A stretch of 64,000 nucleotides of DNA from Winogradskyella helgolandensis (GTDB taxonomy: Bacteria > Bacteroidota > Bacteroidia > Flavobacteriales > Flavobacteriaceae). The stretch's first letter is position 1, and each line of letters opens with the position of its first letter. A program made the position numbers and the translations under genes. Shown in pieces: positions 34,755 to 60,553 of this stretch. Below the pieces are notes generated by a model. It did no database searches. It had not been told where the DNA came from and was given only the letters and a program-made list of their open reading frames with translations. Where the stretch lies: contig NZ_JABFHO010000001.1 of NCBI RefSeq assembly GCF_013404085.1, forward strand, positions 3,235,001 to 3,299,000. The letters are read 5' to 3'.

Positions 34755-34797
34755 TGACCCAGGTCATTTCCAAAACACAAGTTTCATTATAATTTAG
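34755..34797 (+). promoter_or_regulatory. stress-regulon palindrome and promoter of hsp20
   Basis: Palindrome TGACCCAGGTCA (34755-34766), 23 bases, then TAATTTAG (34790-34797) as the -7 element. The Hsp20 ATG follows at 34834. Confidence 0.8.
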
Positions 34798-34833
34798 CCA
34801 TAAATAAATGTTTAACTTTTAAATATTAAAATT

Positions 34834-35271
34834 ATGTCACTAGTAAAATTTAGAAAAAGAAGACCTTGGGGAAATCTTATCTCATCAGATTTTTTTGATA
34901 ATGACGATTTTTTTGATAATCGTTTATGGAACAAAAATTTAAATGAACCTGCATTAAATGTAAAGGAAACTAAAGATGCTTTTGAAGTAGAATTAGCTGC
35001 CCCTGGATTCTCTAAAAAAGATTTTGAAGTAACCATTGATGATGGCTACTTAAATATTTCTGCAGAAAACTCAAGTTCTAATGAAGAAAAAGAAGATAGC
35101 TATACTCGAAAAGAGTTTAGTTATAACTCTTTTGAGAAAAAACTGCAACTTCCAGATTCTGTAAAAGAGGAAAACATTAAGGCAAAATATGAAGATGGAG
35201 TTCTTCGCTTTAATCTTACAAAAAAAGAAGAAGCTAAAACACACAAACCACAGAAAATTGAAATTGCTTAA
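34834..35271 (+). CDS. Hsp20/alpha-crystallin family small heat-shock protein
   Basis: A 145-residue small heat-shock protein. The short N-terminal arm is rich in Asp and Phe (DFFDNDDFFDNRLW). The alpha-crystallin domain spans about residues 40-135 (ALNVKETKDAFEVELAAPGF, VTIDDGYLNISAEN) and contains the conserved A-x-x-x-x-G-V-L motif as AKYEDGVLRFNL. The C-terminal extension ends in PQKIEIA with an I-x-I anchor. It holds unfolding proteins without ATP. It is first in the stress block and has its own regulon-type promoter. Confidence 0.95.
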   Translation: MSLVKFRKRRPWGNLISSDFFDNDDFFDNRLWNKNLNEPALNVKETKDAFEVELAAPGFSKKDFEVTIDDGYLNISAENSSSNEEKEDSYTRKEFSYNSFEKKLQLPDSVKEENIKAKYEDGVLRFNLTKKEEAKTHKPQKIEIA

Positions 35272-35285
35272 TCCTAAATTTCATT

Positions 35286-35326
35286 AAAAGAGAGAGAGAT
35301 ATGAATGGTATTTATATCTCTCTTTT
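35286..35326 (+). terminator. terminator after hsp20
   Basis: AAAAGAGAGAGAGATAT pairs with ATATCTCTCTTTT around a short loop; the T run is within the descending arm. Confidence 0.6.
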
Positions 35327-35526
35327 CTGTTTATTAACTTTTAAATTTAACTAAGTCAGAATGCTCTACACTACCTTAGTACAATTCATTTATAAAAGCT
35401 CACTGAGAGCTAAAATATCCAATAGTTTTAAGCCATATGGAAAGTCTTTTTCAGGAATTAAAATTCTAGAATTAGTATTCGCGTCTAAATTATTTGCTCA
35501 TATTTATTTATAAAAACGCTATCATA
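35327..35526. other. intergenic region before DUF2202 gene
   Basis: About 200 bases of AT-rich DNA with no reading frame worth calling and no tRNA or repeat recognised. It contains a single half-site-like AAGTCA but no paired -7 element. Confidence 0.5.
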
Positions 35527-35569
35527 TGACTAAGGTCATTTCAACTGAAAGCAATAAGAATTAACTTTG
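35527..35569 (+). promoter_or_regulatory. stress-regulon palindrome and promoter of DUF2202 gene
   Basis: Palindrome TGACTAAGGTCA (35527-35538), 23 bases, then a perfect TAACTTTG (35562-35569). The gene starts at 35612. Confidence 0.85.
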
Positions 35570-35611
35570 TTTATTAATTGAAGATATATATAATTTTACA
35601 AATCTATAATT

Positions 35612-36124
35612 ATGAATCAAATCTTTAATAAAAGAATTACAGGTGTTTTCGTTTTAGTAACGGTAAATAAATCTGGACAACAATCGGAAATTTCAGTAGA
35701 AGAAATGAATGCTATGAAATATATGGTTGAAGAAGAAAAAGTAGCTAGAGATGTTTATTACTATTTAGATGGTTTGTGGAATGCTCGTGTTTTTAGTAAC
35801 ATAAAACAAAGTGAAGAACGCCATATGCAAGTTATAAAAAGCCTATTAGACGCATATAATATTACATATAAGTTAAGCGAAAAACAAGGCATCTTTTACA
35901 ACATAGAACTACAAAAACTATACGACGAGCTTATTGAGAAAGGAAAAAAATCGCTATATGATGCTTTTGAAGTGGGCAAACAAATAGAGCTCACTGATAT
36001 TGCAGATTTAGAAGATGCCATAGAAAAAACAGAAGATGATTACATAAAACAAGTTTATAATAATTTATTAGCAGCTTCGCAAAATCACCTCAAAGCTTTT
36101 AATAGACAATTATCTAGATATTGA
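35612..36124 (+). CDS. DUF2202 ferritin-like protein
   Basis: A 170-residue four-helix protein of the DUF2202 family. The conserved acidic and His residues expected for a di-iron ferritin-like centre are present: EEEKVARDVYY (helix 1), QSEERHMQVI (helix 2), ADLEDAIEKT (helix 3) and ASQNHLKAF (helix 4). Most family members are exported, but here the N-terminus (MNQIFNKRITGVFVLVTVNK) is only weakly hydrophobic, so location is uncertain. It may bind iron or handle peroxide. A 75-base gap without a promoter leads into the cardiolipin synthase gene, so the two may share a transcript. Confidence 0.85.
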   Translation: MNQIFNKRITGVFVLVTVNKSGQQSEISVEEMNAMKYMVEEEKVARDVYYYLDGLWNARVFSNIKQSEERHMQVIKSLLDAYNITYKLSEKQGIFYNIELQKLYDELIEKGKKSLYDAFEVGKQIELTDIADLEDAIEKTEDDYIKQVYNNLLAASQNHLKAFNRQLSRY

Positions 36125-36198
36125 TTACATACAGAATTAAAAAAAATAAAGGATTCTTTAAATTAAAATTATAGCTATAAAACAACACTCATATTCTC

Positions 36199-37629: not shown

Positions 37630-37634
37630 ACAAC

Positions 37635-37677
37635 TGATTAAAATCATTATTCATTTAGAATCATCCACATAACTTTG
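37635..37677 (+). promoter_or_regulatory. stress-regulon palindrome and promoter of patatin gene
   Basis: TGATTAAAATCA (37635-37646) keeps the TGA/TCA arms but not the usual core; 23 bases later comes a perfect TAACTTTG (37670-37677). The patatin ATG is at 37701. Confidence 0.75.
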
Positions 37678-37700
37678 TTATTATATACAGATCATAAGAA

Positions 37701-38465
37701 ATGAATTTAGGACTAGTACTTTCTGGTGGAGGCGCTCGTGGCGCTGCTCATATTGGAGTAATAAAAGCATTAGAAGAACACAATGTTTTCCCTACGCATA
37801 TTGCAGGCACCAGTGCTGGTGCTATTGTAGGCGGCTTATATGCAGCAGGTGTGTCATGGTCTGAAATATTAGACTTCTTCAAATCCATAACCATTTTTAG
37901 TACCAATAGATATGCACGAAACAAACCTGGATTTTTAAATTCAGTGAATTTTTATGATGATCTCAAAACCTTTTTTCCGGTTGACAATTTTAATGCTTTA
38001 AAAAAAACGCTATTTGTTACTGCTGCCAACATAATTGACGGCTCATCTAAGATATTTAGCAAAGGCCAAGTTATAAAACCAATTATAGCCTCTGCCTCTT
38101 TTCCTGGCGTTTTTACCCCTACCGAAATCAATGGAAAATATTATGTTGATGGAGGCACACTAAACAATTTCCCTGTTGAACCCTTAAAATCAACCTGTGA
38201 TAAAATTATAGGTGTGTATGTTAATCCCTTAAAAGAAGTCAGCATTAACGATTTAAAGCATTCTTATTCCGTAATTGAGCGCGCCTATAAAATTAAAGTT
38301 GCTGCGGAATCCATGAACAAATTTTTAGATTGTGATTTGATTATAAGCCCTAAAGAATTAGTGGATTACGCGACTTTTGGAATGAATAATATCGATGCTA
38401 TTTTTGACTTAGGTTATAAAACCACTAAAAAGGAACTTGAAAAAAACGTCAATTTATTTATTTAA
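37701..38465 (+). CDS. patatin-like phospholipase (RssA-like)
   Basis: A 254-residue cytosolic lipase. Oxyanion motif LSGGGARGAAHIG, nucleophile elbow GTSAGA with the catalytic Ser, and the DGGTLNNFP motif with the catalytic Asp form the Ser-Asp dyad of patatins. Length fits RssA-like proteins (about 250-300 residues). It probably deacylates phospholipids. It has its own promoter and sits between cardiolipin synthase and an MscS channel, a membrane-lipid theme. Confidence 0.93.
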   Translation: MNLGLVLSGGGARGAAHIGVIKALEEHNVFPTHIAGTSAGAIVGGLYAAGVSWSEILDFFKSITIFSTNRYARNKPGFLNSVNFYDDLKTFFPVDNFNALKKTLFVTAANIIDGSSKIFSKGQVIKPIIASASFPGVFTPTEINGKYYVDGGTLNNFPVEPLKSTCDKIIGVYVNPLKEVSINDLKHSYSVIERAYKIKVAAESMNKFLDCDLIISPKELVDYATFGMNNIDAIFDLGYKTTKKELEKNVNLFI

Positions 38466-38497
38466 TAGAATCTAAAAATTAGATAAAATATTAATTA

Positions 38498-38540
38498 TGA
38501 CTTTTGTTATTTTCAATAGAAAACGGTTTATATATTTTAT
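38498..38540 (+). promoter_or_regulatory. weak stress-regulon site before mechanosensitive channel
   Basis: TGACTTTTGTTA (38498-38509) has a perfect left arm and an imperfect right arm. Exactly 23 bases later lies TATTTTAT (38533-38540). Spacing matches the other sites, but both elements are degenerate. Confidence 0.5.
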
Positions 38541-38545
38541 AAAAA

Positions 38546-39607
38546 ATGAATATTAACTTGTTAAATACGTCAGTTACTTTAGAATCTTGGATTACTTACA
38601 GTTTAGTAATTATAGGTTGCATTTTACTTGGTCTTTTTTTGCAATGGATTATATTTTCACTCATAAAACTTTCTAATAAGAGAAAACCAACAGTTTTAAA
38701 AGTACAACTACTCCAACATATAAAAACACCTACTATATTTCTAATTCCTATCCTCTTTATTTTCAGCTCGCTTAGTTTTCTCAAAATAAACGCTATTTGG
38801 GGCAAGGTGATTGAAAGTCTTATTATAATTAATTTCTCATGGCTATTAATTGCATCCATAAATGCAGTAGAAGAAATTATTAAACAAAAGTTCACAGTTA
38901 ATAACAACACTATAGTAAAAGAAAGAAAAGTATTAACGCAATTGCGATTTATGAAGAGCCTTACTATTGTAATTATTATCACACTTGCCATAGCTACTAT
39001 TTTGTGGAATATTCCTTCTGTTAGAAAATTGGGCACAACCATACTTACATCGGCAGGTGTCATAGGAATTATAGCCGGTGTCGCTGCTCAAAAATCAATT
39101 GCCAACCTAATTACAGGATTTCAAATTGCGTTTACACAACCCATAAAAATTGATGATGAAGTTGTTATCGAAGGTGAGTTTGGTACTGTTGAAGATATCA
39201 CCCTTACTTACGTAGTTATTAAAACTTGGGATTGGAGACGTTTAGTATTACCACTCAACTATTTTAACGATCATGCTTTCGTTAATTGGACCTTTAACTC
39301 GCAAGAACTTATTGGAACCGTGTTTTTTCAAGTCGATTATATGTTCCCAATTGAAGAGATGAGAATAAAACTATTAGAAATTTTAAAAAGCGATATCTTA
39401 TGGGATAAAAATATAGCAGAGTTATTAGTAACTAACACTGATGCAAACACTATGGAATTAAGAGCAACTTTTAGTGCCGAAAATGCTTCAAATATATGGA
39501 GCTTGAGATGTAATGTAAGAGAAAAATTAATTGATTTTATTCAAAAAAATCATCCAAATACTTTTCCTAAAACGAGATTTGCAGATTTGAGTAAAACCTT
39601 AAAATAG
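38546..39607 (+). CDS. MscS-family mechanosensitive channel
   Basis: A 353-residue membrane protein. About four N-terminal helices lead to the pore-lining helix (TSAGVIGIIAGVAAQKSIANLITG, about 170-193), then the MscS beta domain (PIKIDDEVVIEGEFGTVEDITL, WDWRRLVLPLNYF) and a C-terminal alpha/beta domain. It would release solutes on hypo-osmotic shock. A 40-base gap without a promoter joins it to the histidine kinase gene, suggesting co-transcription. Confidence 0.92.
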   Translation: MNINLLNTSVTLESWITYSLVIIGCILLGLFLQWIIFSLIKLSNKRKPTVLKVQLLQHIKTPTIFLIPILFIFSSLSFLKINAIWGKVIESLIIINFSWLLIASINAVEEIIKQKFTVNNNTIVKERKVLTQLRFMKSLTIVIIITLAIATILWNIPSVRKLGTTILTSAGVIGIIAGVAAQKSIANLITGFQIAFTQPIKIDDEVVIEGEFGTVEDITLTYVVIKTWDWRRLVLPLNYFNDHAFVNWTFNSQELIGTVFFQVDYMFPIEEMRIKLLEILKSDILWDKNIAELLVTNTDANTMELRATFSAENASNIWSLRCNVREKLIDFIQKNHPNTFPKTRFADLSKTLK

Positions 39608-39647
39608 TTCACCCTGAAGACGAAAAACAACTGATACTACATACCAT

Positions 39648-42380
39648 ATGAAACACATAAAACTTGATACGCTCATCAATAATTTACCAGGTGTTGTTTA
39701 TCGTATAAAAAACGATAAAAATGGGACTGTAGAATTCATAAGTAAAGGTTGCTTTGCTATAACAGGATATACAAAGGAAGAGTTTGTAGAGGGAAAGGTT
39801 TCACTTCCTAAATTAATTTTAGAAGACCATAAAAAAGCTATAATAGACGCTGTACAAAAAGCAATTACCAACAAAACATCATTTCTTTTAGAATATCGAA
39901 TAACTCATAAAAATGGAACAATTAGATATTGTTTGGAACAAGGTAATGGAATATATGATACAAATGGTATTCTAATTGCTTTTGAAGGGTTTGTCCAAGA
40001 CATTACTAAAAAGAAAAAAACCGAACTACAATTACGAGAAGAAAAAGCAAAAAACAGAGCATTATTAGAAGCTATGCCAGATATAATGTTTATTCAAGAT
40101 TTTGAAGGAAATTATACAGATTGTTTTGTGCCAGAGCATGATAAGCTTTTTATGCCTATAGAATCTGTTATTGGTAAGAATATGACTAATGTATTGCCAC
40201 CACACGTTTTTAAAGTTATTAATAAAGCCCATAAACGTGCCATTAAAAGCAGGCAACTTCAGGTGGTTGAATATAGTTTAAAGAATAAAGATGATTTTTT
40301 TGAAGCACGTGTCATTTGTTTAAATCAACACGGTATATTAACCATTGTCAGGGATATTACAGAAAAAAAGGCCGCCGAATTAAAAATTATAAAAAACGAA
40401 GCCCGAACTACTGCTTTGTTACAAACCTTACCAGACGTAATTATAGTTTATGATAAATATGGTAATCATCTTGAAGTTCATGTACCCGATAATCACCCTC
40501 TTGCTGCATCTTATGATGACCATATTGGTAAAAATATAGATGCCATCCTTCCAAAGGATGTTTGTAAAATTATTAGACATGGTTTCGTAAATTGTAAAAA
40601 CACAAAGAAGCCGATAACCGTTGAATATTCACTTACTATTAACGATAGATTAAGACATATTGAATCACGAATTATTCAAACAGTAGAGGGAAATTTTTTA
40701 ACAGTTATACGTAATGTAACCCAAAGTAAAATTACAGAAAGAGAACTTAAAGAAAACGAAGAAAGACTTAGGCTTGCGCTAGAAGCTGGAGAATTTGGTT
40801 CTTGGGACTGGAATTTGCTAACCAATAGAATAATACGAGATGAAAACGAACACTTACTATTTGGGCCAAAATTCAAAAATCAAGCAGCTACATTCCATTC
40901 GTTTTTAGATATGGTACATCCAGACGATAAAGCAAGGGTAAAATTGTCAATCTCTAAAGTATTAAAGAATGAAAAAACGTATACAAGTGAATACAGAATA
41001 GTTTTACCAGATAAATCAATGCGTTGGTTGGAAGCTAAAGGTAAGGTTTATAGAGACAAAAATGGAAAACCTATTCGGATGATTGGTATTACCCACAATA
41101 TTACAAAACAAAAAAAAGCAGAAGAAAAATTTAAACAAAGTGAAGAAAAATTACGCGATTATACTTTAGATTTAGAAAGAGTCATAGCAGAACGCACCAA
41201 AGAACTCACCTCTACAGTTCAAAAATTAATAGAATCTAATCTAAGTCTAGAAGACCAAATTCTATTTACAAAAGCAGCCGAAGATGAAATACTACAAAGT
41301 AAATTTTTACTAGAAAATATTTCACAAAATTTCCCTAAAGGATTCGTAGTTGTTTGTGATTCAAATTTTAATCTCCTTTTGGTGGAAGGCGAAGAAGTAG
41401 AAGAATTAGGTTTTAAAGGTTTAGCAAAAGAAAAAACTTTAATTGATAATGTTGTAGGTGTGCCACAAAACGTAAAGGATAAAGTAAAGCGAAATGTTTT
41501 AAAAACATTTAAAGGCAAGCATTGCTCTTTTGAAGTGGGATATCAAGACCGCATTTTTTTAATTAATTCCACACCATTAAGAGATCTAAATAACAACATT
41601 ACACAGGTTTTGTTAGTCCATCATAATATTACTAAACAAAAACAGATAGAATTAAATATTCAAAAGAGTTTAAAACAAGAAAAACAATTAAGTGAATTAA
41701 AATCACGATTCATCTCAATGGCATCACACGAGTTTAGAACACCTCTAAGTGCTATTTTATCATCAGCTATCTTAATAGAGAAATTAAATGCTCCAGGAAA
41801 AGAAGATAAACGATTAAATCATGTTTCAAAAATCAGATCTAACATAAAAAACTTAGTGATTATACTTAATGATTTTCTATCATTGAGCAAACTTCACGAA
41901 GGTAAAGTTATAGCGCAGCCCTCATTATTTAATATTATTGATTTTTCCAAATCGGTCATTGACGAAATAGAAGGCGTCAAAAAAAATGGTCAAATCATTT
42001 CATTTAAGCACCAACAAGAACATCTAGAAGTGTTTTTAGATTTCAAACTAATGCGTCATATTATTTTCAATTTAATATCAAATGCCATTAAATACTCCGA
42101 CGAGAATAAAGAGATTACTTTGAAAATAGAAGCGAATACTAAGCAATTATTTATAGAAGTTACTGATGAAGGTATTGGTATTCCAAAAGAAGATTTAGAC
42201 AATATGTTTAAACGATTTTATCGCGCCAACAACACAACCAATATACAAGGTACTGGTTTAGGATTAAATATAACCAAACAATATACAGAACTTATGGGTG
42301 GAAAAATCACCTTTAAAAGTAAATTAAATGTAGGAACAACTTTTTATCTAGAGTTTCCTTTAAATAATGGAATGATATGA
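39648..42380 (+). CDS. multi-PAS sensor histidine kinase
   Basis: A 910-residue soluble histidine kinase with no membrane helices. Its array includes PAS at about 5-120 (VEFISKGCFAITGYTKEEF), two related domains at about 135-240 and 255-360 (each opening AL-x-LPD-x), a PAS fold-3 type at about 375-490 (GEFGSWDWNLLTNRI) and another sensor region at about 560-670. A DHp helix carries His694 in MASHEFRTPLS, and an HATPase follows with NLISNAIKYSDEN, DEGIGIPKE and GTGLGLNI. It lacks a receiver of its own. The next gene encodes a receiver-CRP protein and is the obvious partner. Cytosolic PAS domains suggest sensing of redox, oxygen or a small ligand; no cofactor residue can be assigned. Confidence 0.9.
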   Translation: MKHIKLDTLINNLPGVVYRIKNDKNGTVEFISKGCFAITGYTKEEFVEGKVSLPKLILEDHKKAIIDAVQKAITNKTSFLLEYRITHKNGTIRYCLEQGNGIYDTNGILIAFEGFVQDITKKKKTELQLREEKAKNRALLEAMPDIMFIQDFEGNYTDCFVPEHDKLFMPIESVIGKNMTNVLPPHVFKVINKAHKRAIKSRQLQVVEYSLKNKDDFFEARVICLNQHGILTIVRDITEKKAAELKIIKNEARTTALLQTLPDVIIVYDKYGNHLEVHVPDNHPLAASYDDHIGKNIDAILPKDVCKIIRHGFVNCKNTKKPITVEYSLTINDRLRHIESRIIQTVEGNFLTVIRNVTQSKITERELKENEERLRLALEAGEFGSWDWNLLTNRIIRDENEHLLFGPKFKNQAATFHSFLDMVHPDDKARVKLSISKVLKNEKTYTSEYRIVLPDKSMRWLEAKGKVYRDKNGKPIRMIGITHNITKQKKAEEKFKQSEEKLRDYTLDLERVIAERTKELTSTVQKLIESNLSLEDQILFTKAAEDEILQSKFLLENISQNFPKGFVVVCDSNFNLLLVEGEEVEELGFKGLAKEKTLIDNVVGVPQNVKDKVKRNVLKTFKGKHCSFEVGYQDRIFLINSTPLRDLNNNITQVLLVHHNITKQKQIELNIQKSLKQEKQLSELKSRFISMASHEFRTPLSAILSSAILIEKLNAPGKEDKRLNHVSKIRSNIKNLVIILNDFLSLSKLHEGKVIAQPSLFNIIDFSKSVIDEIEGVKKNGQIISFKHQQEHLEVFLDFKLMRHIIFNLISNAIKYSDENKEITLKIEANTKQLFIEVTDEGIGIPKEDLDNMFKRFYRANNTTNIQGTGLGLNITKQYTELMGGKITFKSKLNVGTTFYLEFPLNNGMI

Positions 42381-42479
42381 AACAAGCAAGCTTATATTTT
42401 TAACACTCAGGCAAATGTTTGATTGCAAATATTGCCGATAATTATTGAGATGATCATTGAAAACAATAAATCTAGACAC

Positions 42480-43550
42480 ATGAAAAAAATACTATTAATT
42501 GAAGACAACAAAGATGTTAGAGAAAATACGGCCGAAATTCTTGAATTAGAAAACTACGATGTATCAACTGCAGAAAATGGTAAAATTGGTGTTGAAAAAG
42601 CACTTGAAATTATGCCTGATTTAATTATTTGCGACATTATGATGCCTGTATTAGATGGCTACGGTGTGTTTGAACGCCTAAGTAATAATCTAAAAACGGC
42701 CAGTATTCCATTTGTTTTTTTAACCGCTAAATCTGAAAAAGCAGATTTAAGAAAAGGTATGAATCTTGGTGCTGATGATTACTTAACCAAACCATTTGAA
42801 GAAACGGAATTACTCGATGCCATAGAATGTAGAATAAGAAAAAATACATTTTTAAAGAAAGAGTATGCTAAAAACATTGACGGTATTAATCAATTTTTAA
42901 ATGAAGCATCAGACTATTTAAACCTGGAAGCTTTGTCTAAAGACCGCAGCATTCAATCTTATAAAACTAAAGAAAGAATTTATGATGAAGGCAATGCAGC
43001 ACATCAATTGTTTTATATACAAAGTGGTAATGTAAAAACCTACCGAACAACAGAATCTGGTAAGGAATTTGTAACAGGTTTATATGGTGCAGGCGATTTC
43101 ATTGGGCAATTATCATTATTAGGAGATACCGGAACTTATATAGAAACAGCGAGTGTTTTAGAAGATGCTGAAATTTGTGGTATCCCAAAAGCAGATTTTA
43201 CAAAACTCATACATGTTAATAAAGATGTTTCTAATAAATTTATTGAAATGATTTCTCATAGTCTAATCCATTTACAAGAACAACTCGTGGATATGGCATT
43301 TGCTACAGTGCGTCAAAAAACCGCCAAAGCATTATTAGAATTAGATGCCAAAGGTTTAATAAAAGATAAGCAGCATAAAGGCATAAGCATGCCAAGAGAA
43401 GATTTTGCTGGTCTTATTGGAACCGCAACTGAAACTGCAATTAGAATGTTAACCGAATTTAAAAATGAAGGTTTAATTGGAGTAGAACCTAATAGAAAAC
43501 TTGTTTTGTTAGATAAAGAAGGCTTGAGAGATGTTGCTGAGTTTGGATAA
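42480..43550 (+). CDS. hybrid response regulator with CRP/FNR effector
   Basis: A 356-residue regulator. The receiver (1-120) has acidic E8/D9, phospho-acceptor Asp52 in DLIICDIMMPVLDG, FLTAKSE and LTKPFEE. The cyclic-nucleotide-type beta barrel (about 150-250) has RIYDEGNAAHQLFYIQSGNV. The CRP-type winged helix (about 280-350) has the recognition helix TATETAIRMLTEFK. The Glu and Arg of E-T-x-x-R are those CRP uses to read TGA in half-sites. The start at 42480 (MKKILLIEDN) is preferred; the frame extends upstream to 42423 through a non-receiver segment. It follows the PAS kinase by 99 bases and lies inside a block with 13 TGA-N6-TCA promoters. Confidence 0.92.
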   Translation: MKKILLIEDNKDVRENTAEILELENYDVSTAENGKIGVEKALEIMPDLIICDIMMPVLDGYGVFERLSNNLKTASIPFVFLTAKSEKADLRKGMNLGADDYLTKPFEETELLDAIECRIRKNTFLKKEYAKNIDGINQFLNEASDYLNLEALSKDRSIQSYKTKERIYDEGNAAHQLFYIQSGNVKTYRTTESGKEFVTGLYGAGDFIGQLSLLGDTGTYIETASVLEDAEICGIPKADFTKLIHVNKDVSNKFIEMISHSLIHLQEQLVDMAFATVRQKTAKALLELDAKGLIKDKQHKGISMPREDFAGLIGTATETAIRMLTEFKNEGLIGVEPNRKLVLLDKEGLRDVAEFG

Positions 43551-44151: not shown

Positions 44152-44484
44152 TTAGTTTTTTTGAAGGTGTGCATTTCTTCTTTTAAGTTCTTCCAACTTA
44201 TTTTCTAAAGCAGAAATGATATCATCAGCTTTCCCGCTCATATTAGAAATAGTATCATCTAATTTTTGTTCAAACTCTTCCTTTTTATGATTTACGGTTT
44301 TCGTCAATTCTTCTTTTGCATGAGATACACGTTCAGCAATGTCGTGTTCCATATCTTCAGCTTTTTGCTTAATTCTTCTTCTTGTTTCTGTACCCTTATC
44401 TGGTGCGTATAAAATTCCAATACCTGCACCTATTGCTGCTCCTGTTAATAAAGCTAATAAGGTGTTTTCGCTATTTCTTGTCAT
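44152..44484 (-). CDS. YtxH domain-containing protein
   Basis: A 110-residue protein with an N-terminal glycine-rich membrane helix (LLALLTGAAIGAGIGILYAPDKG), the hallmark of YtxH, followed by TRRRIKQKAEDM and a long amphipathic coil. Related B. subtilis genes are general-stress genes. It is first in a three-gene operon whose promoter at 44546-44588 belongs to the stress regulon. Confidence 0.9.
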   Translation of the reverse strand: MTRNSENTLLALLTGAAIGAGIGILYAPDKGTETRRRIKQKAEDMEHDIAERVSHAKEELTKTVNHKKEEFEQKLDDTISNMSGKADDIISALENKLEELKRRNAHLQKN

Positions 44485-44545: not shown

Positions 44546-44588
44546 CAAAATTAGGACTATTAACCCAAGATTAGAATGACCTACGTCA
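44546..44588 (-). promoter_or_regulatory. stress-regulon palindrome and promoter of YtxH operon
   Basis: Read on the minus strand: TGACGTAGGTCA (44588-44577), 23 bases, then a perfect TAATTTTG (44553-44546). The YtxH ATG is at 44484. Confidence 0.85.
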
Positions 44589-44627
44589 GCCTAGAAAAAA
44601 ATTAAATAATATCATAAATAACTAGAT

Positions 44628-44670
44628 TGATGGAGGTCATTTCTTATAGGCGTTCATTCTTTTATTTTAG
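44628..44670 (+). promoter_or_regulatory. stress-regulon palindrome and promoter of gene at 44711
   Basis: TGATGGAGGTCA (44628-44639), 23 bases, then TATTTTAG (44663-44670). The site shows that the coding start is downstream at 44711 rather than at the ATG at 44630, which lies inside the palindrome. Confidence 0.75.
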
Positions 44671-44710
44671 CATTATAATCGGTAATAATATTGCCAGCAT
44701 AACAAAGAAG

Positions 44711-45199
44711 ATGAATTCTAAAATTGAAGAATTAAAAGAAAAGCACGTATTATTAAAAGCTTTCCCTTCAATTAAGCAAATGAATAATGCTATAAAGCAC
44801 ATTTGCCGATTGAAAATTGATGGTATTCAAATTTCTGTTTTAGGCAAACTAGAAGATGTTGATTTATATACCAATTTCACAAATTATTGGACGGAATTAA
44901 AAGCCGATTATAAGGATGAATTGAAACTTTCTTCAAATTTTGGAATAGTGTCAAACCCTAATATAGGTACTATTTTTATTACAGGATTTTTGACACCTAT
45001 ATTTTTACAAAAAATTAATGGTAAATCAATTGGATCAATGACAACAGGTCTATATGGGATTTTAAGAGGCTTGGGAATTGAGAAAAAAAGCGTCCTCGCT
45101 TATTCAAAAGCGTTAAATAAAGGCAATTATCTACTTGTAATAAGAGGCAATAAAAGTGAATTACAGGAAATAGGCGTTAATTTTAAAGAATCGGCTTAG
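44711..45199 (+). CDS. general-stress-protein-like (DUF1269/YflT-type) protein
   Basis: A 162-residue protein. The N-terminal part (KIEELKEKHVLLKAFPSIKQ) resembles a small alpha/beta domain. The middle has a hydrophobic Gly-rich stretch (NPNIGTIFITGFLTPIFL), and the C-terminal segment (GLYGILRGLGIEKKSVLAYSKALNKGNYLLVIRG) follows the GL-x-GI-x-A-x-Y-x-x-G-x-x-L-V-x-V pattern of YflT/DUF1269 heat-induced proteins. Exact family is uncertain. The frame is open back to 44627, but that part covers the promoter. Confidence 0.65.
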   Translation: MNSKIEELKEKHVLLKAFPSIKQMNNAIKHICRLKIDGIQISVLGKLEDVDLYTNFTNYWTELKADYKDELKLSSNFGIVSNPNIGTIFITGFLTPIFLQKINGKSIGSMTTGLYGILRGLGIEKKSVLAYSKALNKGNYLLVIRGNKSELQEIGVNFKESA

Positions 45200-46131: not shown

Positions 46132-46174
46132 TGACCTACATCATTGTTAACTCCTAAACGTTTTTCTAAATTCA
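46132..46174 (+). promoter_or_regulatory. stress-regulon palindrome and promoter of SDR gene
   Basis: TGACCTACATCA (46132-46143), 23 bases, then TAAATTCA (46167-46174). The SDR ATG is at 46211. Confidence 0.75.
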
Positions 46175-48621: not shown

Positions 48622-49272
48622 TTAGATTATTTCCAACTCATTTTTCACATCATAAACACCAGGAGCAGAATATGCCGTCTTTCTAGCTTCATCTTTTTCT
48701 AAAATTGAATTGACTCTACCATGTAATTTTACGGTATGACCTTCAACATCTACATAAATATTTTTCGCATCAATATCTGCCATACGCTCGAATGCTTGTT
48801 TAATTTTATTCTTAATATCTACAGGTTTCGCAATAGGTTTTAAAGTGATTTCATTGGTTACACCATGTACACCAAGCAAATCCTCAACAGCAGTTTTTGC
48901 AGCTATTCTTTGATATTCCCATTCTACATTGCCAGTTAAGTATACCCAACCGTTTTCAACTTTTGCTTCAACTTTTTCTTCAGGTACAGATGAGTTTCTT
49001 TTTAAAGCATCAACCACTGCTTTCGCTATTTCCGTATCAGTAAATTTATTATCTACACCATATTTAACGACGATACCTTCTGCTACAGCTTTTACACCAG
49101 AAACATGTCTTACTGCTTTTTCTGCGTTGCGTTTTTTAGTATAGTTATCTACAATACCACTTAAAGTTACCACACCATTTTTTACAATAACACCAATTTC
49201 AGTTTCATCAATGTTAGGTTGCCAAGACAGTTCTTCTAAAATATCTTCTTTTATACTTTCATCAGTTCTCAT
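48622..49272 (-). CDS. triple BON-domain protein, copy 1
   Basis: A 216-residue protein made of three BON domains (about 1-70, 75-145 and 148-216), each with the V-x-x-G-x-V-x-L-x-G-x-V pattern (GVVTLSGIVDNY, GWVYLTGNVEWE, HTVKLHGRVNSI). There is no signal peptide, so unlike OsmY it is probably cytosolic. It belongs to a set of four paralogues in the window, all starting with MRTD and sharing LSWQPNIDETEIGVIV-type N-termini. Its regulon promoter (49308-49350) is divergent from that of the sigma-like gene. Confidence 0.92.
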   Translation of the reverse strand: MRTDESIKEDILEELSWQPNIDETEIGVIVKNGVVTLSGIVDNYTKKRNAEKAVRHVSGVKAVAEGIVVKYGVDNKFTDTEIAKAVVDALKRNSSVPEEKVEAKVENGWVYLTGNVEWEYQRIAAKTAVEDLLGVHGVTNEITLKPIAKPVDIKNKIKQAFERMADIDAKNIYVDVEGHTVKLHGRVNSILEKDEARKTAYSAPGVYDVKNELEII

Positions 49273-49307: not shown

Positions 49308-49350
49308 CAAAAGTAGCTTAGAGTATTAGGATCTAAAATGATTCAAGTCA
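49308..49350 (-). promoter_or_regulatory. stress-regulon palindrome and promoter of BON copy 1
   Basis: Minus strand: TGACTTGAATCA (49350-49339), 23 bases, then a perfect TACTTTTG (49315-49308). It is back-to-back with the site of the sigma-like gene, 23 bases apart. Confidence 0.85.
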
Positions 49351-49373: not shown

Positions 49374-49416
49374 TGACCTAGGTCATTCCCCTAAATCTAT
49401 AGCAGCCGTAAATTTG
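49374..49416 (+). promoter_or_regulatory. stress-regulon palindrome and promoter of sigma-like/dnaJ operon
   Basis: Perfect palindrome TGACCTAGGTCA (49374-49385), 23 bases, then a perfect TAAATTTG (49409-49416). The ATG follows at 49437, leaving a leader of roughly 17 bases. Confidence 0.9.
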
Positions 49417-49436: not shown

Positions 49437-50204
49437 ATGGACAATCTAAAATATTATGAAAGTAAAAAGGAATTTGATGTATTTGTAGCAAGTACATTTT
49501 CCGATTTAAAGACATATAAAAGCGAAAACAAACAAGCAGCTTTCAATAAATTATTATTAACGGACTTATTTGAAGTAAAGCGTTACATCATTAAAAGATT
49601 AAGTACAGCTTTAACTAAAGGAAATTTACCTCAAAACAAATATAAAGCTGACGATTTTATAGACCAATTGTTTATTGAAGTTTATGACCACATTAATGAG
49701 GTTGAAAACGAGAAAAAATTTTATCCTTGGTTATTTAAAAAAGCTAATGACTTATTAGATGATAAAATTGAAGAAGAATCTTTTGATGATTTCTTTCTAA
49801 AAAACATTGACACTTATACGCAACCCGAATGGGATGAAATGCAAGAAAAATTTAGTACCGATGGTGGTGGCGATTTACTGTTGATTGAAGAATTAGATGA
49901 CATGTCTTACAATCATAACGACTACACCCTAAATCATGTATTTATTGAAGATGAAGAGAAAGACTGGATTGAAAAAATTGATAAGGATTTAAGTGCTAAA
50001 GACATTGAAAACCAAATTGCATTAGTGCTACATCACTTACCATTAGAGATGCGAACCGTTTTTCAATTGTCTACTGTTCAGCACTTAGAATTGGGTGATA
50101 TTGCTCAAATACAAAATATAACCATTGAAACGGTAAAACTACATTTAGCAACTGCGAAAAACGCGCTTAAAGTCAGTTTTATGAACAGATATCCTGTGAA
50201 ATAA
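49437..50204 (+). CDS. sigma-70-like protein
   Basis: A 255-residue protein. The C-terminal part (about 195-250) is a sigma region 4-type helix-turn-helix ([40 protein letters not shown]). The N-terminal part has a region 2-like helical stretch ([40 protein letters not shown]). A long acidic insert in the middle (about 115-190) is unusual for an ECF sigma factor. It may be a divergent sigma factor or a sigma-like regulator. It heads a five-gene operon with dnaJ and thioredoxin. Confidence 0.75.
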
Positions 50205-50220
50205 TAAATCATTTTGTAAA

Positions 50221-51177
50221 ATGAACTACAAGGATTATTATAAAATATTAGGAGTTAGCAAAGATGCTTCCGAAAAAGAAATTAAGAAAGCCTATCGGAA
50301 ATTAGCAGCGAAACATCATCCAGATAAAAATCCTGATGATAAAGCGTCTGAAGAAAAATTTAAAGAAATAAACGAGGCTAACGAAGTTTTAAGCGATAAA
50401 GAAAAGCGTGAAAAATATGACACACTAGGCTCTAACTGGGAAGCTTACCAAAATACAGGAGATGACTGGCGAGATTACGCCAATCAAGCCAACCAAAGAC
50501 AAAGCAGAGCAAATGGTTATTCTTATCAAGGAGATCCTTCTAGTTTTTATGGCCAAGGTGCACAAAGTGGCGAAGATTTCTCTAGTTTCTTTGAAACCTT
50601 TTTTGGAGCAGGCGGACGAAATACAAGAGGCCAACGATCAGCACATTCTGGAGGCGACACGCAAGCCGAAATGCCAATTACACTTTTGGAAGCCTACGAA
50701 GGAAGCAAACGTACCTTTGAAATCCACAATGAAACGTTACGCATATCGATTAAAAAAGGAGCATATGACGGTCAGCAATTAAAAATAAAAGGCAAAGGCC
50801 AGAAAGGTGTTCAAGCCGGCAACAGAGGTGATTTGTATATTATTTTAAAAGTACAACAAGATCCTCGATTTCAAAGAAATGGAGATAACCTACTCTACAG
50901 TGCCTCAGTAGATTTATATACCGCCATTTTAGGTGGTAAAATAGAAGTACCAACGCTTACAGGAACTGTAAAGGTTACCGTTCCAAAAGGTAGTGAAACA
51001 GGAAAAATACTCAGATTAAAAGGCAAAGGCATGCCTAAATATAATAAACCAACAACACATGGTGATTTGTTAGTGAAATTAACCGTGAATTTACCTAAAG
51101 CGCTTACAAAGGAAGAAGAAGAATTATTTAAAAAATTACAAGGTTTAAGAACACCTCAAACCGTAGACACAAACTAA
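50221..51177 (+). CDS. CbpA-type DnaJ co-chaperone
   Basis: A 318-residue type II J-protein. The J domain (1-68) has the HPD motif in [10 protein letters not shown], a Gly/Gln-rich linker follows ([20 protein letters not shown]), then two DnaJ C-terminal beta domains ([37 protein letters not shown]). The zinc-finger of canonical DnaJ is absent, as in CbpA. It should stimulate DnaK. It is 16 bases after the sigma-like gene. Confidence 0.94.
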
Positions 51178-51194
51178 AAAAAAAATAGATAATT

Positions 51195-51605
51195 ATGGAC
51201 ACATTAATTTCAAACCCAAAAGCACAATATTTATTAGGTGCAGGACTCGATGTTTTACATTTTGAAAGCAGAGAATGGCTAGATACTATTGACTTGTATA
51301 AAGATGAAGTTCGATTTTTTGAAAATTTATTAAAAGAAAAAGATGGGGCAAAATACAACAAGTCAGACTATGAAAAGATGCTGGATAATTTAAATATGAT
51401 TCACACTGATTTGTTCAACGATTTAGAGCAAAGCATCATTGAACACGAACAGCTTTTATCTAAAATAGAATTGGCTGAAAAAGGATTATCGGATAATGAT
51501 TATAGAGAAAAACATCAACAAATTCGATTAAGAATAAACACTTTTAGTAAAAATTTTAAAACCTTTAAAAGAATTGTATTTGATTATGCAAAAAGTCTTA
51601 ATTAG
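51195..51605 (+). CDS. uncharacterised helical protein in the dnaJ operon
   Basis: A 136-residue soluble, mostly helical and acidic protein (DLYKDEVRFFENLLKEKDG, DLEQSIIEHEQLLSKIELAE) without recognised domain. The position directly after a CbpA-type gene is where CbpM modulators lie in enterobacteria, but the sequence does not look like CbpM. The Asp/Glu-rich paired helices resemble proteins built as helical bundles. It is 17 bases after dnaJ. Confidence 0.65.
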   Translation: MDTLISNPKAQYLLGAGLDVLHFESREWLDTIDLYKDEVRFFENLLKEKDGAKYNKSDYEKMLDNLNMIHTDLFNDLEQSIIEHEQLLSKIELAEKGLSDNDYREKHQQIRLRINTFSKNFKTFKRIVFDYAKSLN

Positions 51606-51651
51606 TAAATTATCTAACTTTTATTAATTCGAATTAAAATTTATAAAAATT

Positions 51652-51963
51652 ATGAAAGGGGATTTCAATAAAATAGTAAATGAAGAAGTACCTGTTCTAG
51701 TAGATTTCTTCGCCGAATGGTGTGGACCTTGTAAAGCGCAATCACCAATTATAAAAGCGTTAGCGCAAGAGGTTAATGGCAAAGTACGCGTTATAAAAAT
51801 AGATATTGATAAAAACCAAGCAGTAGCACAGCGCTACAATGTTAGAGGTGTTCCAACATTGGTTTTGTTTAAAGAGGGACAGATTGTTTGGCGACAATCT
51901 GGTGTACAGAGTAAGGAGCAACTTATAGGTGTTATAAAACAACACACTTCCGTTTTGAGTTAA
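51652..51963 (+). CDS. thioredoxin
   Basis: A 103-residue thioredoxin with the active site WCGPC in FFAEWCGPCKAQSP, the cis-Pro loop GVPTLVLFK and C-terminal QLIGVIKQH. A thiol-disulfide reductase of the cytosol. It is part of the sigma-like/dnaJ operon, so it is probably a stress-specific thioredoxin rather than the housekeeping one. Confidence 0.95.
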   Translation: MKGDFNKIVNEEVPVLVDFFAEWCGPCKAQSPIIKALAQEVNGKVRVIKIDIDKNQAVAQRYNVRGVPTLVLFKEGQIVWRQSGVQSKEQLIGVIKQHTSVLS

Positions 51964-52539: not shown

Positions 52540-52582
52540 TGATTTCGGTCATTTCAGAAACCGTTTTATTGGACTAAATTTA
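52540..52582 (+). promoter_or_regulatory. stress-regulon palindrome and promoter of PNPOx-like gene
   Basis: TGATTTCGGTCA (52540-52551), 23 bases, then TAAATTTA (52575-52582). The ATG at 52616 is about 30 bases after the expected start of transcription. Confidence 0.75.
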
Positions 52583-52615
52583 TGCTTTAAATCATTGATA
52601 ATAAAAATCATCATT

Positions 52616-53065
52616 ATGTTAGGCAACTTAAACAATAGACAGATTGAGCATGTATTACACAGTTTAATTATTGGTAGAATTGGCTGCCATACAGATAATA
52701 AAACCTATATCGTTCCTATAACTTATGCCTATGATGGTAAATATATCTACGGACATACTAACGAAGGTATGAAGATTGACATGATGCGAAAGAATCCAAT
52801 GGTTTGTTTTGAAGCCGATGTTGTAGATAATATGAGTAATTGGAGAAGTGTCATTGCTTGGGGAAAATTTGAAGAATTAAAAACACCTGAGGAACGAATA
52901 GAAGGCATGAAAATAATAACAGATAAAGTTATGCCTTTAATGACTGGAGAGACAACTATGAGTCACTCAATGACTGACTCAGGACAAGAATCCATTGAAG
53001 CTTTGCAAGGAGTTGTGTACAGAATTAAACTGACAGAAAAAACGGGAAGATTCGAAAAAATGTAG
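52616..53065 (+). CDS. pyridoxamine 5'-phosphate oxidase-like flavoprotein
   Basis: A 149-residue split-barrel protein of the PNPOx-like family (HSLIIGRIGCHTDNKTYIVP, YGHTNEGMKIDMMRKNPMVC, WRSVIAWGKFEEL). It may bind FMN or F420-type cofactors and is often a nitroimidazole-type or stress-linked flavoprotein in this family. The start at 52616 (MLGNLNNRQIEHVL) is preferred to the TTG at 52595. It converges on the APC permease gene. Confidence 0.88.
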   Translation: MLGNLNNRQIEHVLHSLIIGRIGCHTDNKTYIVPITYAYDGKYIYGHTNEGMKIDMMRKNPMVCFEADVVDNMSNWRSVIAWGKFEELKTPEERIEGMKIITDKVMPLMTGETTMSHSMTDSGQESIEALQGVVYRIKLTEKTGRFEKM

Positions 53066-53089
53066 CTTTAAATGTTAGATACTATTTTA

Positions 53090-54491: not shown

Positions 54492-55145
54492 CTAGTCAAT
54501 TACTTCGATCTCATTGATTACAATATGAACACCTGGTGCTAAATATGCCGCGTTTTCAGCCGCTTTCTTTTCTGCTATTGAATGAACTGTGCCATTAAGT
54601 TTCACTAAACCATCTGTGGCATCAACTGAGATTGCATTGGCTTCTATAGCTGCAGAGCGTTTAAAGGCTTTAGTTATTTTTTCCTTAACATCTAATGGTT
54701 GTAGGCTTTGTTTTATAGTGATGGTATTGTTTATCCACTTTACTCCAATTATGTTTTCTGCAACACGTTTCGCGGCATCCTTTTGGTAGAAGGATTCCAC
54801 TTCTCCTGATAAATTAATCCAACCATCTCGTACTTCAATCGAAATTTTATCTTCAGGCACTGCTGTGTTCCATTCAAAAGCTCTTACAATGGCTTTACTA
54901 ATCTCTAAGTCCGTTTTTTGGTAGTTTGTTCCGTACTTAACTTCAATATCTCCTGCTAATGCCTTTACCCCTTTCACTCGTTTTACAGCTTCTTCTGCAG
55001 CCACTTTTTTATGGTAATCATCTAGGACACCTGTAAGCATAACAGTTCCATTCTCTACGACGACTCCAATTTGAGTTTCGTCTACATTGGGTTGCCATTC
55101 GAGTTCCTCCAATACATCTTTTTTAATATCTAAATCTGTTCTCAT
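54492..55145 (-). CDS. triple BON-domain protein, copy 2
   Basis: A 217-residue protein with three BON repeats (GTVMLTGVLDDY, GWINLSGEVESF, GLVKLNGTVHSI) and no signal peptide. It shares the MRTD start and the LEWQPNVDETQIGVVV opening with the copies at 48622, 58990 and 59821. Its own regulon promoter lies at 55183-55225. Confidence 0.92.
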   Translation of the reverse strand: MRTDLDIKKDVLEELEWQPNVDETQIGVVVENGTVMLTGVLDDYHKKVAAEEAVKRVKGVKALAGDIEVKYGTNYQKTDLEISKAIVRAFEWNTAVPEDKISIEVRDGWINLSGEVESFYQKDAAKRVAENIIGVKWINNTITIKQSLQPLDVKEKITKAFKRSAAIEANAISVDATDGLVKLNGTVHSIAEKKAAENAAYLAPGVHIVINEIEVID

Positions 55146-55182
55146 AATAATTATATTTAAATTATTGGATATATGTTTACTA

Positions 55183-55225
55183 CAAAGTTACTTTAGGAAG
55201 GTTTTAATTGAAATGACTTGTATCA
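55183..55225 (-). promoter_or_regulatory. stress-regulon palindrome and promoter of BON copy 2
   Basis: Minus strand: TGATACAAGTCA (55225-55214), 23 bases, then a perfect TAACTTTG (55190-55183). Confidence 0.85.
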
Positions 55226-55261
55226 GCCCTTTTTGCTTCGTATTTCTAGATTTAAGACAAC

Positions 55262-57766: not shown

Positions 57767-58036
57767 AAAAAGTTTTGAGAAAGTAGTTTTTATAAATGTA
57801 AAACTTTCATTTTCAATATTTTGAAATTTTCACACTATGCCTGACCTCAAATAATTAATCGCACACGTAATTCTTCAATTTTATGAGAAACATAATTTCT
57901 AAGAAAACTCAACTAATATCATTTCTACATATAGTATTCGATGCCTGATTGCATAATTTATTATGCTTTTTATATAAGTACTTTTACATGGATCTACTAT
58001 CCATTATTTTAAGTAGAACTTAAAATGAATTACATT

Positions 58037-58933: not shown

Positions 58934-58989
58934 TTTAATCGTTTTTATGCTCTTAATTATTTTATTCTAAAACTCTATATTTCTTGTGT

Positions 58990-59652
58990 TTACATATAAA
59001 CAGCATCGTATTCTACCTTTAATTCATTTTTTACATTAGTGATACCTTCCGCTAAATATGCCGCTATGAGTGCATCGTCTTTTTCTTTAATTGAATTTAC
59101 TTTACCTTGAAGTATTGCTGTATTCCCTTGAATAGTAACAGTAATATTATTGGCATCTATGCTTGCTGAACGCTCAAAAGCTTTATTGATGTTTTTCTCT
59201 ATATCAATTGGTGTCACTTCTTCGATTATACTAATAGTATTAATTATGCTTTTTATACCTTCAATATATTCTAAACTTTTTTCTGCTTCACTTTTTTGAT
59301 AGGCCCACTTTACTTTACCCGTTAAGAAAACATGACCATCTTCAACTTTTACATTAATATTTTCTTGAGGTACGGAAGTATTCCACTCTAAATCAAAACT
59401 GATTTTTTTAGCAAGATCAGTATCACTAACGTTAGCTTTGATTTTAACTTCGATATCATCCACAACAGCTTTAACCCCTATTATTTTTTTTGCCGCATTT
59501 ACAGCGACTAATTTTTCTGCCAAGTTGCTGACGATACCAGAAAGCCTAACAATTCCGTATTTAACTTCTATATTAAAATGTGTTTCATTAACAATTGGTT
59601 GCCAAGCAAATTCATCTAATACGTCCTGTTTTATTTCTATATCTGTTCTCAT
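58990..59652 (-). CDS. triple BON-domain protein, copy 3
   Basis: A 220-residue, three-BON protein (GIVRLSGIVSNL, GHVFLTGKVKWA, NTAILQGKVNSI) with no signal peptide. It is the most diverged of the four copies at the N-terminus (FAWQPIVNETHFNIEV) and has a short C-terminal extension (EYDAVYM). Its promoter at 59690-59732 carries a perfect palindrome. Confidence 0.92.
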   Translation of the reverse strand: MRTDIEIKQDVLDEFAWQPIVNETHFNIEVKYGIVRLSGIVSNLAEKLVAVNAAKKIIGVKAVVDDIEVKIKANVSDTDLAKKISFDLEWNTSVPQENINVKVEDGHVFLTGKVKWAYQKSEAEKSLEYIEGIKSIINTISIIEEVTPIDIEKNINKAFERSASIDANNITVTIQGNTAILQGKVNSIKEKDDALIAAYLAEGITNVKNELKVEYDAVYM

Positions 59653-59689
59653 TATTTCTGAATTTTAAAGCCTTCTAAATTGATCTATA

Positions 59690-59732
59690 CAAAATTAGTC
59701 TAGTTGATTATGTTAAATACTGACCTAGGTCA
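59690..59732 (-). promoter_or_regulatory. stress-regulon palindrome and promoter of BON copy 3
   Basis: Perfect palindrome TGACCTAGGTCA (59721-59732), 23 bases, then a perfect TAATTTTG on the minus strand (59697-59690). Confidence 0.9.
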
Positions 59733-59736
59733 GTGT

Positions 59737-59775
59737 AAAAAAATTGCCCTAATCCAATTAATTGATTTAGGGCAG
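59737..59775 (-). terminator. terminator after BON copy 4
   Basis: TGCCCTAATC pairs with GATTTAGGGCA (one bulge) around a short loop. On the minus strand a run of T's follows. It separates BON copy 4 from the BON copy 3 promoter. Confidence 0.75.
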
Positions 59776-59820
59776 TTTTCTATAAGAAATATCAATTTCT
59801 TATATAGGTATTAAGAAAAA

Positions 59821-60474
59821 CTAGTAAACAACTTCTAATTCGTTATCTACAGCCCAAACACCTGGTGAATAATAAGCTGTTCTCCTAGCATCATCTTTTT
59901 CTTTTAATGAATGTACTCTACCAGATAATGTTACCGTATGTCCTTCTGTTTTTACAGTAATTCCTTTGGAATCAATATCTGCAGAACGCTCAAATGCTTT
60001 TTTTATTTTTGCTTCGATATTACTAGCATCTACGCTATTTTTAAGTGTAATATTATTAACCACATATTTTACACCAGATAGGTTTTCTACTGCTTTTTTT
60101 GCAGCGTTTTGTTCAAAAGCCCACATCACTTCACCTGTAAGATAAATCCAACCATTTTCGACTTTGACTTCAATTTTATTAGATGGCACTGAAATATTCC
60201 ACTTTAAAGCATTAACAGCTGCTAACGCTATTTCTGTATCTGATTTTTTGAAACTTTCACCATATTGTACTTCAATATCTTCTGCGACGGCTTTAACTCC
60301 AAATACACTTTTAGCAGCATTTTCTGCTTCGCGTTTTTTTACGTAACTATCTACGGTTCCTGATAGTGTTACAACACCATTTTTTACAATAACCCCAATT
60401 TGGGTCTCATCTATGTTTGGCTGCCACTGTAGTTCATCCAAAACATCTTCCTTAATACTTAAATCTGTTCTCAT
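59821..60474 (-). CDS. triple BON-domain protein, copy 4
   Basis: A 217-residue protein, closest to copy 1 (LQWQPNIDETQIGVIV, GVVTLSGTVDSY, GWIYLTGEVMWA, HTVTLSGRVHSL). Three BON domains, no signal peptide. It has its own promoter (60511-60553) and terminator, so it is monocistronic. Confidence 0.92.
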   Translation of the reverse strand: MRTDLSIKEDVLDELQWQPNIDETQIGVIVKNGVVTLSGTVDSYVKKREAENAAKSVFGVKAVAEDIEVQYGESFKKSDTEIALAAVNALKWNISVPSNKIEVKVENGWIYLTGEVMWAFEQNAAKKAVENLSGVKYVVNNITLKNSVDASNIEAKIKKAFERSADIDSKGITVKTEGHTVTLSGRVHSLKEKDDARRTAYYSPGVWAVDNELEVVY

Positions 60475-60510
60475 CTCGTTATGATTTTAATTAAACATTA
60501 ATTTATACTT

Positions 60511-60553
60511 CAAAGGTATTGCGGTGTTAACCTATTGACACTGACCTACATCA
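60511..60553 (-). promoter_or_regulatory. stress-regulon palindrome and promoter of BON copy 4
   Basis: Minus strand: TGATGTAGGTCA (60553-60542), 23 bases, then a perfect TACCTTTG (60518-60511). Confidence 0.85.

Follow-up and report, generated by a model that had tools for sequence, protein, structure and literature searches.

Which protein could act on a run of promoters that carry the same palindrome at the same distance from the -7 element? This question is raised by a 64,000-nucleotide stretch (hereafter the window; G000:C1:3235001-3299000) of the 4.6-Mb, two-contig genome of Winogradskyella helgolandensis, in which thirteen sites combine TGA-N6-TCA, a gap of 23 bases (N23) and a TAnnTTTG-like element. 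We consider it probable that these sites are class II operators of a CRP/FNR-family dimer, most likely the response regulator encoded at 42423-43550 and paired with a PAS kinase, and that they serve to activate a stress and survival cluster.

Composite sites at a fixed spacing

A pattern search of the window recovered all thirteen composites at the coordinates and on the strands given in a preliminary description made from the sequence, each with exactly 23 bases between the operator and the -7-like element (13/13). TGA-N6-TCA is exact in 12 of the 13 sites, the exception being 38498, which reads TGA-N6-TTA and has a poor -7 element. Exact TAnnTTTG elements number eight of 13, as had been counted, and core palindrome and TAnnTTTG are both exact in 8 of 13. 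Two palindromes had been called perfect, and those at 49374 and 59721 are indeed both TGACCTAGGTCA. The RGTCA half is the better conserved one, as had been proposed: beyond the core, G or A precedes TCA in 13/13 sites and TT follows it in 11/13. The sites and the genes behind them are as follows.

34755..34797, + strand: operator TGACCCAGGTCA, N23, -7 element TAATTTAG; upstream of the Hsp20 gene 34834-35271
35527..35569, + strand: operator TGACTAAGGTCA, N23, -7 element TAACTTTG; upstream of the DUF2202 gene 35612-36124 (Pfam)
37635..37677, + strand: operator TGATTAAAATCA, N23, -7 element TAACTTTG; upstream of the patatin-like phospholipase gene 37701-38465
38498..38540, + strand: weak operator TGACTTTTGTTA, N23, TATTTTAT, 3 mismatches; upstream of the MscS-type channel gene 38546-39607
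44546..44588, - strand: operator TGACGTAGGTCA, N23, -7 element TAATTTTG; upstream of the YtxH/phasin-like gene 44152-44484 (Pfam)
44628..44670, + strand: operator TGATGGAGGTCA, N23, -7 element TATTTTAG; upstream of an uncharacterised open reading frame (ORF) of 190 amino acids, 44627-45199
46132..46174, + strand: operator TGACCTACATCA, N23, TAAATTCA, 2 mismatches; upstream of the SDR dehydrogenase gene 46211-46969
49308..49350, - strand (site 49339): operator TGACTTGAATCA, N23, -7 element TACTTTTG; upstream of the BON/OsmY-type gene 48622-49272
49374..49416, + strand: perfect operator TGACCTAGGTCA, N23, -7 element TAAATTTG; upstream of the sigma-70-like gene 49437-50204
50221-51177 and 51652-51963, + strand: DnaJ, then thioredoxin, behind the sigma-70-like gene
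52540..52582, + strand: operator TGATTTCGGTCA, N23, TAAATTTA; upstream of the NimA-like flavoprotein gene 52595-53065
55183..55225, - strand: operator TGATACAAGTCA, N23, -7 element TAACTTTG; upstream of the BON/OsmY-type gene 54492-55145
59690..59732, - strand (site 59721): perfect operator TGACCTAGGTCA, N23, -7 element TAATTTTG; upstream of the BON/OsmY-type gene 58990-59652
60511..60553, - strand: operator TGATGTAGGTCA, N23, -7 element TACCTTTG; upstream of the BON/OsmY-type gene 59821-60474

The listed start of ORF 44627-45199 overlaps the operator at 44628, and the true start therefore lies downstream, at an in-frame ATG further in. The run from 49437 to 51963 under the perfect operator begins with the sigma-70-like gene, followed by DnaJ, an uncharacterised gene and thioredoxin. 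The sigma-70-like protein may act as a second-tier regulator in this response.

The exact pattern occurs eight times in the window against a mean of 0.048 and a maximum of 2 in 500 dinucleotide shuffles, and the interval from 34 to 61 kb alone holds eight exact matches against a shuffled mean of 0.006 and a maximum of 1. When the gap was left free between 5 and 45 bases, eight matches fell at gap 23 and single ones at 24 and 35. A chance origin, which had already been discounted in the preliminary description, is thus ruled out by the shuffles together with the spacing histogram. From the palindrome centre it is 29 bases downstream to the first base of TAnnTTTG, and therefore about 41 to the inferred start. 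Class II activation by CRP and FNR in Escherichia coli uses a site centred at -41.5. The earlier proposal of fixed-distance CRP/FNR-type operators with a class II-like placement is supported: they occur on both strands, far more often than by chance, and are conserved in relatives, with the -41 position itself derived from the -7 element.

The same pattern is spread more widely. Across the whole genome, 100 matches were found at gaps of 8 to 38 bases, with 29 at gap 23, seven at gap 22 and a mean of 2.4 at each of the 30 gaps other than 23, and the reversed pattern gave none in the whole genome. Further sites of the cluster, beyond the window end, precede the genes of a ferritin and of a universal stress protein (Usp). 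The thirteen sites of the regulon described earlier therefore stand, but not as a closed set, given 29 exact genome sites and a cluster that continues past the window. Among 149 genomes of the family, the architecture is present in 144, with 1358 matches against 133 for the reversed pattern. Being near-universal, it is not the property of this regulator alone; in the window's genome it also occurs at promoters that are probably controlled by other members of the CRP/FNR family, and it therefore does not by itself define one regulon.

A receiver-CRP regulator and its kinase within the cluster

The preliminary description named no regulator. The gene for a response regulator that joins a receiver to a CRP module lies at the centre of the cluster, next to a kinase gene.

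39648..42380, + strand: histidine kinase of 910 amino acids with several PAS domains, HisKA and HATPase_c (Pfam, family matches)
42423..43550, + strand: response regulator with receiver, CRP-type cNMP-binding domain and Crp helix-turn-helix; proposed activator

The probable start of the regulator is residue 20 (MKKILLIEDN). Its receiver domain matches PF00072 (E 2.2e-27), carries IICD and FLTAK motifs with the phospho-acceptor Asp and qualifies as that of a response regulator; PF00027, PF13545 and PF00325 are matched above the Pfam cut-offs, and residues 176-355 match CRP structures, which places the protein in the CRP/FNR superfamily by its cNMP-type beta-roll and Crp helix-turn-helix. The Glu and Arg of the E-x3-R recognition helix of CRP, which we take to contact the TGA/TCA half-sites, align with E and R of the regulator. 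The Glu, Arg and Ser that bind the cAMP phosphate in CRP are not conserved in the regulator, where the aligned positions are Q, Y and I (the pocket positions being those we assume from E. coli CRP), and its sequence contains no FNR-like N-terminal cysteine cluster. On these residues we rejected a cAMP-CRP or [4Fe-4S]-FNR nature for the window regulator. In total, five CRP/FNR proteins of the genome score above the Pfam cut-off.

In 80 of 80 related loci the regulator gene is immediately preceded by the kinase gene. A FixL-type heme PAS was not found in the window kinase, and the structure matches of its PAS part, which are to other PAS domains, led us to reject one; the FixL chain that it does match is covered at residues 14-145, outside the heme domain matched by the kinase of a relative.

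Site subtype and conservation in relatives

Since spacing alone is shared, the subtype of the operator is more informative. The strict form TGAYNYARGTCATT, here the GTCATT subtype, occurs in 12 of the 149 family genomes, and an ortholog of the regulator with at least 56% identity in 11. Seven of these 11 genomes carry the strict form against five of the other 138 (Fisher p 8e-7), or six of 10 against five of 138 with the window's own genome excluded (p 7e-6), p values that are optimistic because the genomes share kinship. In the six genomes besides the window's own, all ten strict sites share a contig with the regulator gene and are within 20 kb of it. In the five exception genomes the strict sites are not near receiver-CRP genes, where such genes exist.

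For comparison with relatives we used 80 named receiver-CRP loci, the best 80 among 569 stretches that were confirmed. Of these loci the nearest 16, from Flavobacteriaceae plus one Weeksellaceae (hereafter the Flavobacteriaceae set), form a clade with the window's own locus with support of 100/100. Footprints were sought upstream of orthologous genes in these 16 loci that scored at least 60 and had 250 bases of upstream sequence present; ORFs shorter than 120 amino acids, such as ytxH, fell outside this set. A composite with at most one mismatch precedes 39 of 52 target orthologs, compared with 0 of 52 in the reversed-sequence control. The site is present in orthologs of hsp20 (9/9), of ORF 44627-45199 (9/10), of the patatin-like phospholipase gene (7/9) and of mscS, the gene behind the weak site 38498 (4/5). 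Among the BON/OsmY-type genes, the site is present in the single ortholog of 48622-49272 and in two of three orthologs of 59821-60474. For the sigma-70-like gene, allowing up to one mismatch finds it in five of 10 orthologs, and allowing up to two, in nine of 10.

Orthologs of the other cluster genes bear a composite in 14 of 66 cases, eight of which are the kinase gene, that is, half of the 16 kinase genes of the Flavobacteriaceae set; kinase genes also make up three of the 32 genes behind the tandem sites described below. The sites before the eight kinase genes of the Flavobacteriaceae set suggest self-regulation.

Over all 80 loci there are 102 matches at gap 23 and 57 at gap 45, and no further gap between 5 and 44 has more than six; when gaps of 0 to 109 bases are considered, only 23 and 45 exceed seven matches. 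A scrambled half-site control gave none at gap 23 in the 80 loci. Only three of the 102 gap-23 matches lie wholly inside an ORF of at least 120 amino acids, and such ORFs occupy 84% of the sequence.

Tandem operators outside the Flavobacteriaceae

The second peak, at gap 45, is 23 plus 22 and therefore implies a second palindrome, 22 bp from the first, centre to centre. A conserved coding stretch was considered as its source and rejected, as the sites proved to be tandem palindromes, and at these loci the nearer palindrome still lies N23 from the -7 element. When the promoter element was not required, palindrome pairs at 22 bp numbered 92 and were spread over 43 of the 64 distant loci (next most frequent distance: 9), with none in the 16 loci of the Flavobacteriaceae set. 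Complete composites, counted after exclusion of sites too close to a locus end, divide in the same way: the 16 Flavobacteriaceae-set loci have 47 single composites and no tandem ones, against 13 single ones and 42 tandems for the 64 distant loci, the tandems occurring in 26 of these. Examples among the receiver-CRP loci outside Flavobacteriaceae (L054-L117) are L061:11081, L067:11095 and L087:10577, all upstream of TAnnTTTG. The proximal copy of tandem loci often ends in CTCATT, and the distal copy is more FNR-like.

The tandem is not confined to the selected loci. Unselected genomes of the phylum carry the 22-bp tandem in 21 of 296 cases, at 38 places, with 0 in the reversed control. With the spacer left free from 0 to 30 bases in 247 genomes of the class, a spacer of 10 (22 bp) accounts for 118 of the 150 matches listed; among the same 150 listed matches, a spacer of 11 (23 bp) is seen in 12 and one of 21 (33 bp, three helical turns) in five. 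The window's own genome has no tandem, the two pairs listed from it being the divergent window sites 49339 and 49374.

The genes behind the two kinds of promoter were compared where an ORF of at least 70 amino acids starts within 250 bases, which left out 10 of the 42 tandem and 11 of the 47 single promoters. The 32 tandem-site genes include, by Pfam, COX1 plus FixO (cbb3 oxidase; 6), Usp (6), DoxX (6), kinase (3), Hsp20 (1) and COX2 (1). Behind the 36 single sites of the Flavobacteriaceae set are YtxH (7), kinase (5), BON (4), patatin (4) and MscS (4), besides single cases that include Hsp20, ferritin, Usp and 3-hydroxyacyl-CoA dehydrogenase. Two receiver-CRP loci, L102 and L106, come from bins labelled Bacteriovorax and Deltaproteobacteria and pair together among Bacteroidota rows, a placement that may reflect transfer or mis-binned contigs.

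Alternative regulators

Several observations weigh against assigning the sites to the regulator 42423-43550. The spacing of 23 is common to probable FNR promoters and therefore does not single it out. Five genomes without a close ortholog carry GTCATT (four have a distant receiver-CRP, one has none at E 1e-60), and four of the 11 genomes with a close ortholog lack GTCATT in its strict form. The single orthologs of the sdr and nim genes in the set have no site. Three of the 29 exact genome matches (L006, L007, L008) lie inside or mostly inside an ORF of at least 100 amino acids. By sequence, the window kinase has no FixL-like heme PAS. Lastly, a window scan allowing up to two mismatches gave 28 matches against a shuffled mean of 17.8, a count reached by two of 100 shuffles and thus weakly above chance; because this excess is weak, the weakest members, 46132 (2 mismatches) and 38498 (3), are not self-standing by sequence.

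It is also conceivable, if unlikely, that the window sites are driven by the canonical FNR-like protein of the genome (G000:C1 ~3932461, with N-terminal Cys-x2-Cys), with the neighbouring receiver-CRP protein acting on other targets. The recognition helices are very similar, sites of the TGAT-N4-ATCA type number hundreds in the family, and family genomes without any receiver-CRP match still carry the N23 architecture. The FNR-like gene is itself divergent from a metal-transport ATPase gene and is followed, on the opposite strand, by a CcoNO gene with a TGATATTTATCA-N23 site (L164:4453-10095). However, the window sites are rich in GTCATT, whereas those near cbb3, hemN and cytochrome genes are TGATAnnTATCA-like, and GTCATT sites go with the receiver-CRP ortholog and its surroundings.

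Co-regulation of the cluster by a second receiver-CRP regulator (G000:C1 ~3689473, 44% identical), or by a mix of all three family members, seems to us rather less likely still. The same motif core and spacing are found at the genes neighbouring this second regulator, and the first PAS of its kinase matches FixL and DosP, which would give a plain oxygen input; its sites, however, end in ATCAT and not GTCATT, and it is the window regulator that is encoded inside its own cluster. The second regulator gene overlaps its kinase gene by 4 bases (L163:3465-6019; C1 ~3689465-3692018), and Usp genes with N23 sites adjoin it. That a repressor sharing this fold acts at the sites, with the fixed spacing reflecting promoter occlusion, is very improbable: the spacing by itself does not say whether regulation is positive or negative, but the palindrome lies wholly upstream of the -33 region without overlapping the -7 element, and the second site of tandem loci is placed further upstream, as for an activator.

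Proposed mechanism and signal

With the receiver-CRP regulator as the preferred activator, we infer the following course of events from binding to the start positions. The PAS kinase 39648-42380 would phosphorylate the receiver of the regulator, upon which a dimer of the CRP module would occupy the operator near -41.5 and contact RNA polymerase in the class II manner. Activation would then extend to Hsp20, the four BON/OsmY proteins, the patatin, the mechanosensitive channel, YtxH and the sigma-like factor with DnaJ and thioredoxin, and past the window to ferritin and the universal stress protein. At tandem promoters, a second dimer would bind two turns upstream on the same face.

The window system belongs to a Bacteroidota-wide family of kinase and receiver-CRP pairs, and relatives bear on its possible signal. 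One short kinase of the tandem group, compared with the PDB, has the heme PAS of FixL and DosP as its best matches, with a His aligned to the FixL position that is presumably the proximal heme His. A FixL-type sequence motif is found in 42 of 56 distant-group kinases and five of 16 Flavobacteriaceae-set kinases, counted among kinases of at least 350 amino acids, in a PAS subtype that is common. Because the pairs outside Flavobacteriaceae have the two operators at 22 bp, adjoin cbb3 oxidase, Usp and DoxX promoters and mostly have FixL-like PAS kinases, the ancestral signal of these pairs was probably low oxygen. Low-oxygen sensing is least sure for the window's own kinase, whose PAS domains differ.

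By analogy, the pair with tandem sites looks like FixL-FixJ-FixK compressed into one pair. Taking these observations together, we lean slightly towards a scenario in which a phylum-typical Bacteroidota low-oxygen pair has a FixL-like kinase whose phosphorylation target is one receiver-CRP protein uniting FixJ and FixK, with an ancestral tandem operator at about -41.5 and -63.5, 22 bp or two helical turns apart, driving cbb3 oxidase, Usp and DoxX. A regulator clade within Flavobacteriaceae would then have reduced the tandem to one operator, swapped the sensor domains and taken over a dormancy-like stress cluster, while an FNR protein took the cbb3 promoters.

Comparison with known systems

The components are of known kinds, namely class II CRP/FNR sites, receiver domains, FixL-like PAS domains and survival clusters of which lxa is an example. 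In common with class II activation by CRP and FNR, the window has TGA/TCA half-sites, a CRP-fold dimer module with E-x3-R and a palindrome about 41 bases from the inferred start. Unlike there, the promoter is of the Bacteroidota TAnnTTTG type, the likely activator is receiver-controlled and the relatives carry an obligate-looking second site 22 bp upstream. With the FixL-FixJ-FixK cascade of alphaproteobacteria the system shares a FixL-like PAS kinase in relatives, a CRP-family activator and cbb3 and universal stress targets, and structures of FixL and FixK2 came up in the structure comparisons. It differs in that FixJ and FixK would be one protein, with no separate LuxR-type FixJ step, and in that the window kinase has no FixL-like PAS.

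The lxa locus of Burkholderia cenocepacia, as presented in the available part of its description, clusters Usp, heat shock and BON-domain phospholipid-binding proteins under a proposed FNR/FixK-type regulator and is likened by its authors to the DosR dormancy regulon (PMC6127331). The window cluster likewise joins stress-protein, heat-shock and BON-domain genes with a proposed regulator of the FNR/FixK type, but it belongs to another phylum and has another gene order, and the lxa regulator is, in that same part of the source, a separate FixK-like protein (PMC6127331). HcpR and other FNR-like regulons use TTGAC-N4-GTCAA and related palindromes, with members in Bacteroides and Porphyromonas, according to the portion of the article available (PMC1274295). 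They resemble the window system in their related palindromes and in the CRP/FNR family, but differ in that HcpR-type targets are hcp and nitrogen-oxide genes and in that, within that portion, the regulators are not described as receiver fusions (PMC1274295). A Flavobacteriales genome bin was scanned with the MalR matrix only, in the section of the paper at hand (PMC8510549).

The earlier statement that no flavobacterial regulon with this architecture has been described is not contradicted by our searches of open-licence papers, in which we likewise found no description of the regulator family, its operator or the 22-bp tandem.

Significance for Bacteroidota gene regulation

Bacteroidota promoters differ from the E. 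coli type. The present findings provide testable operator rules for CRP/FNR regulons of the phylum, namely a spacing of 23 to TAnnTTTG and a second site at 22 bp, and a regulator-kinase pair can now be named for a dormancy-like stress cluster. They also offer a natural example in which operator number changes, from two sites to a single one, along the tree of a regulator. A true link to oxygen would make the pair a one-step equivalent of FixL-FixJ-FixK, parallel in function to the survival regulons lxa and DosR.

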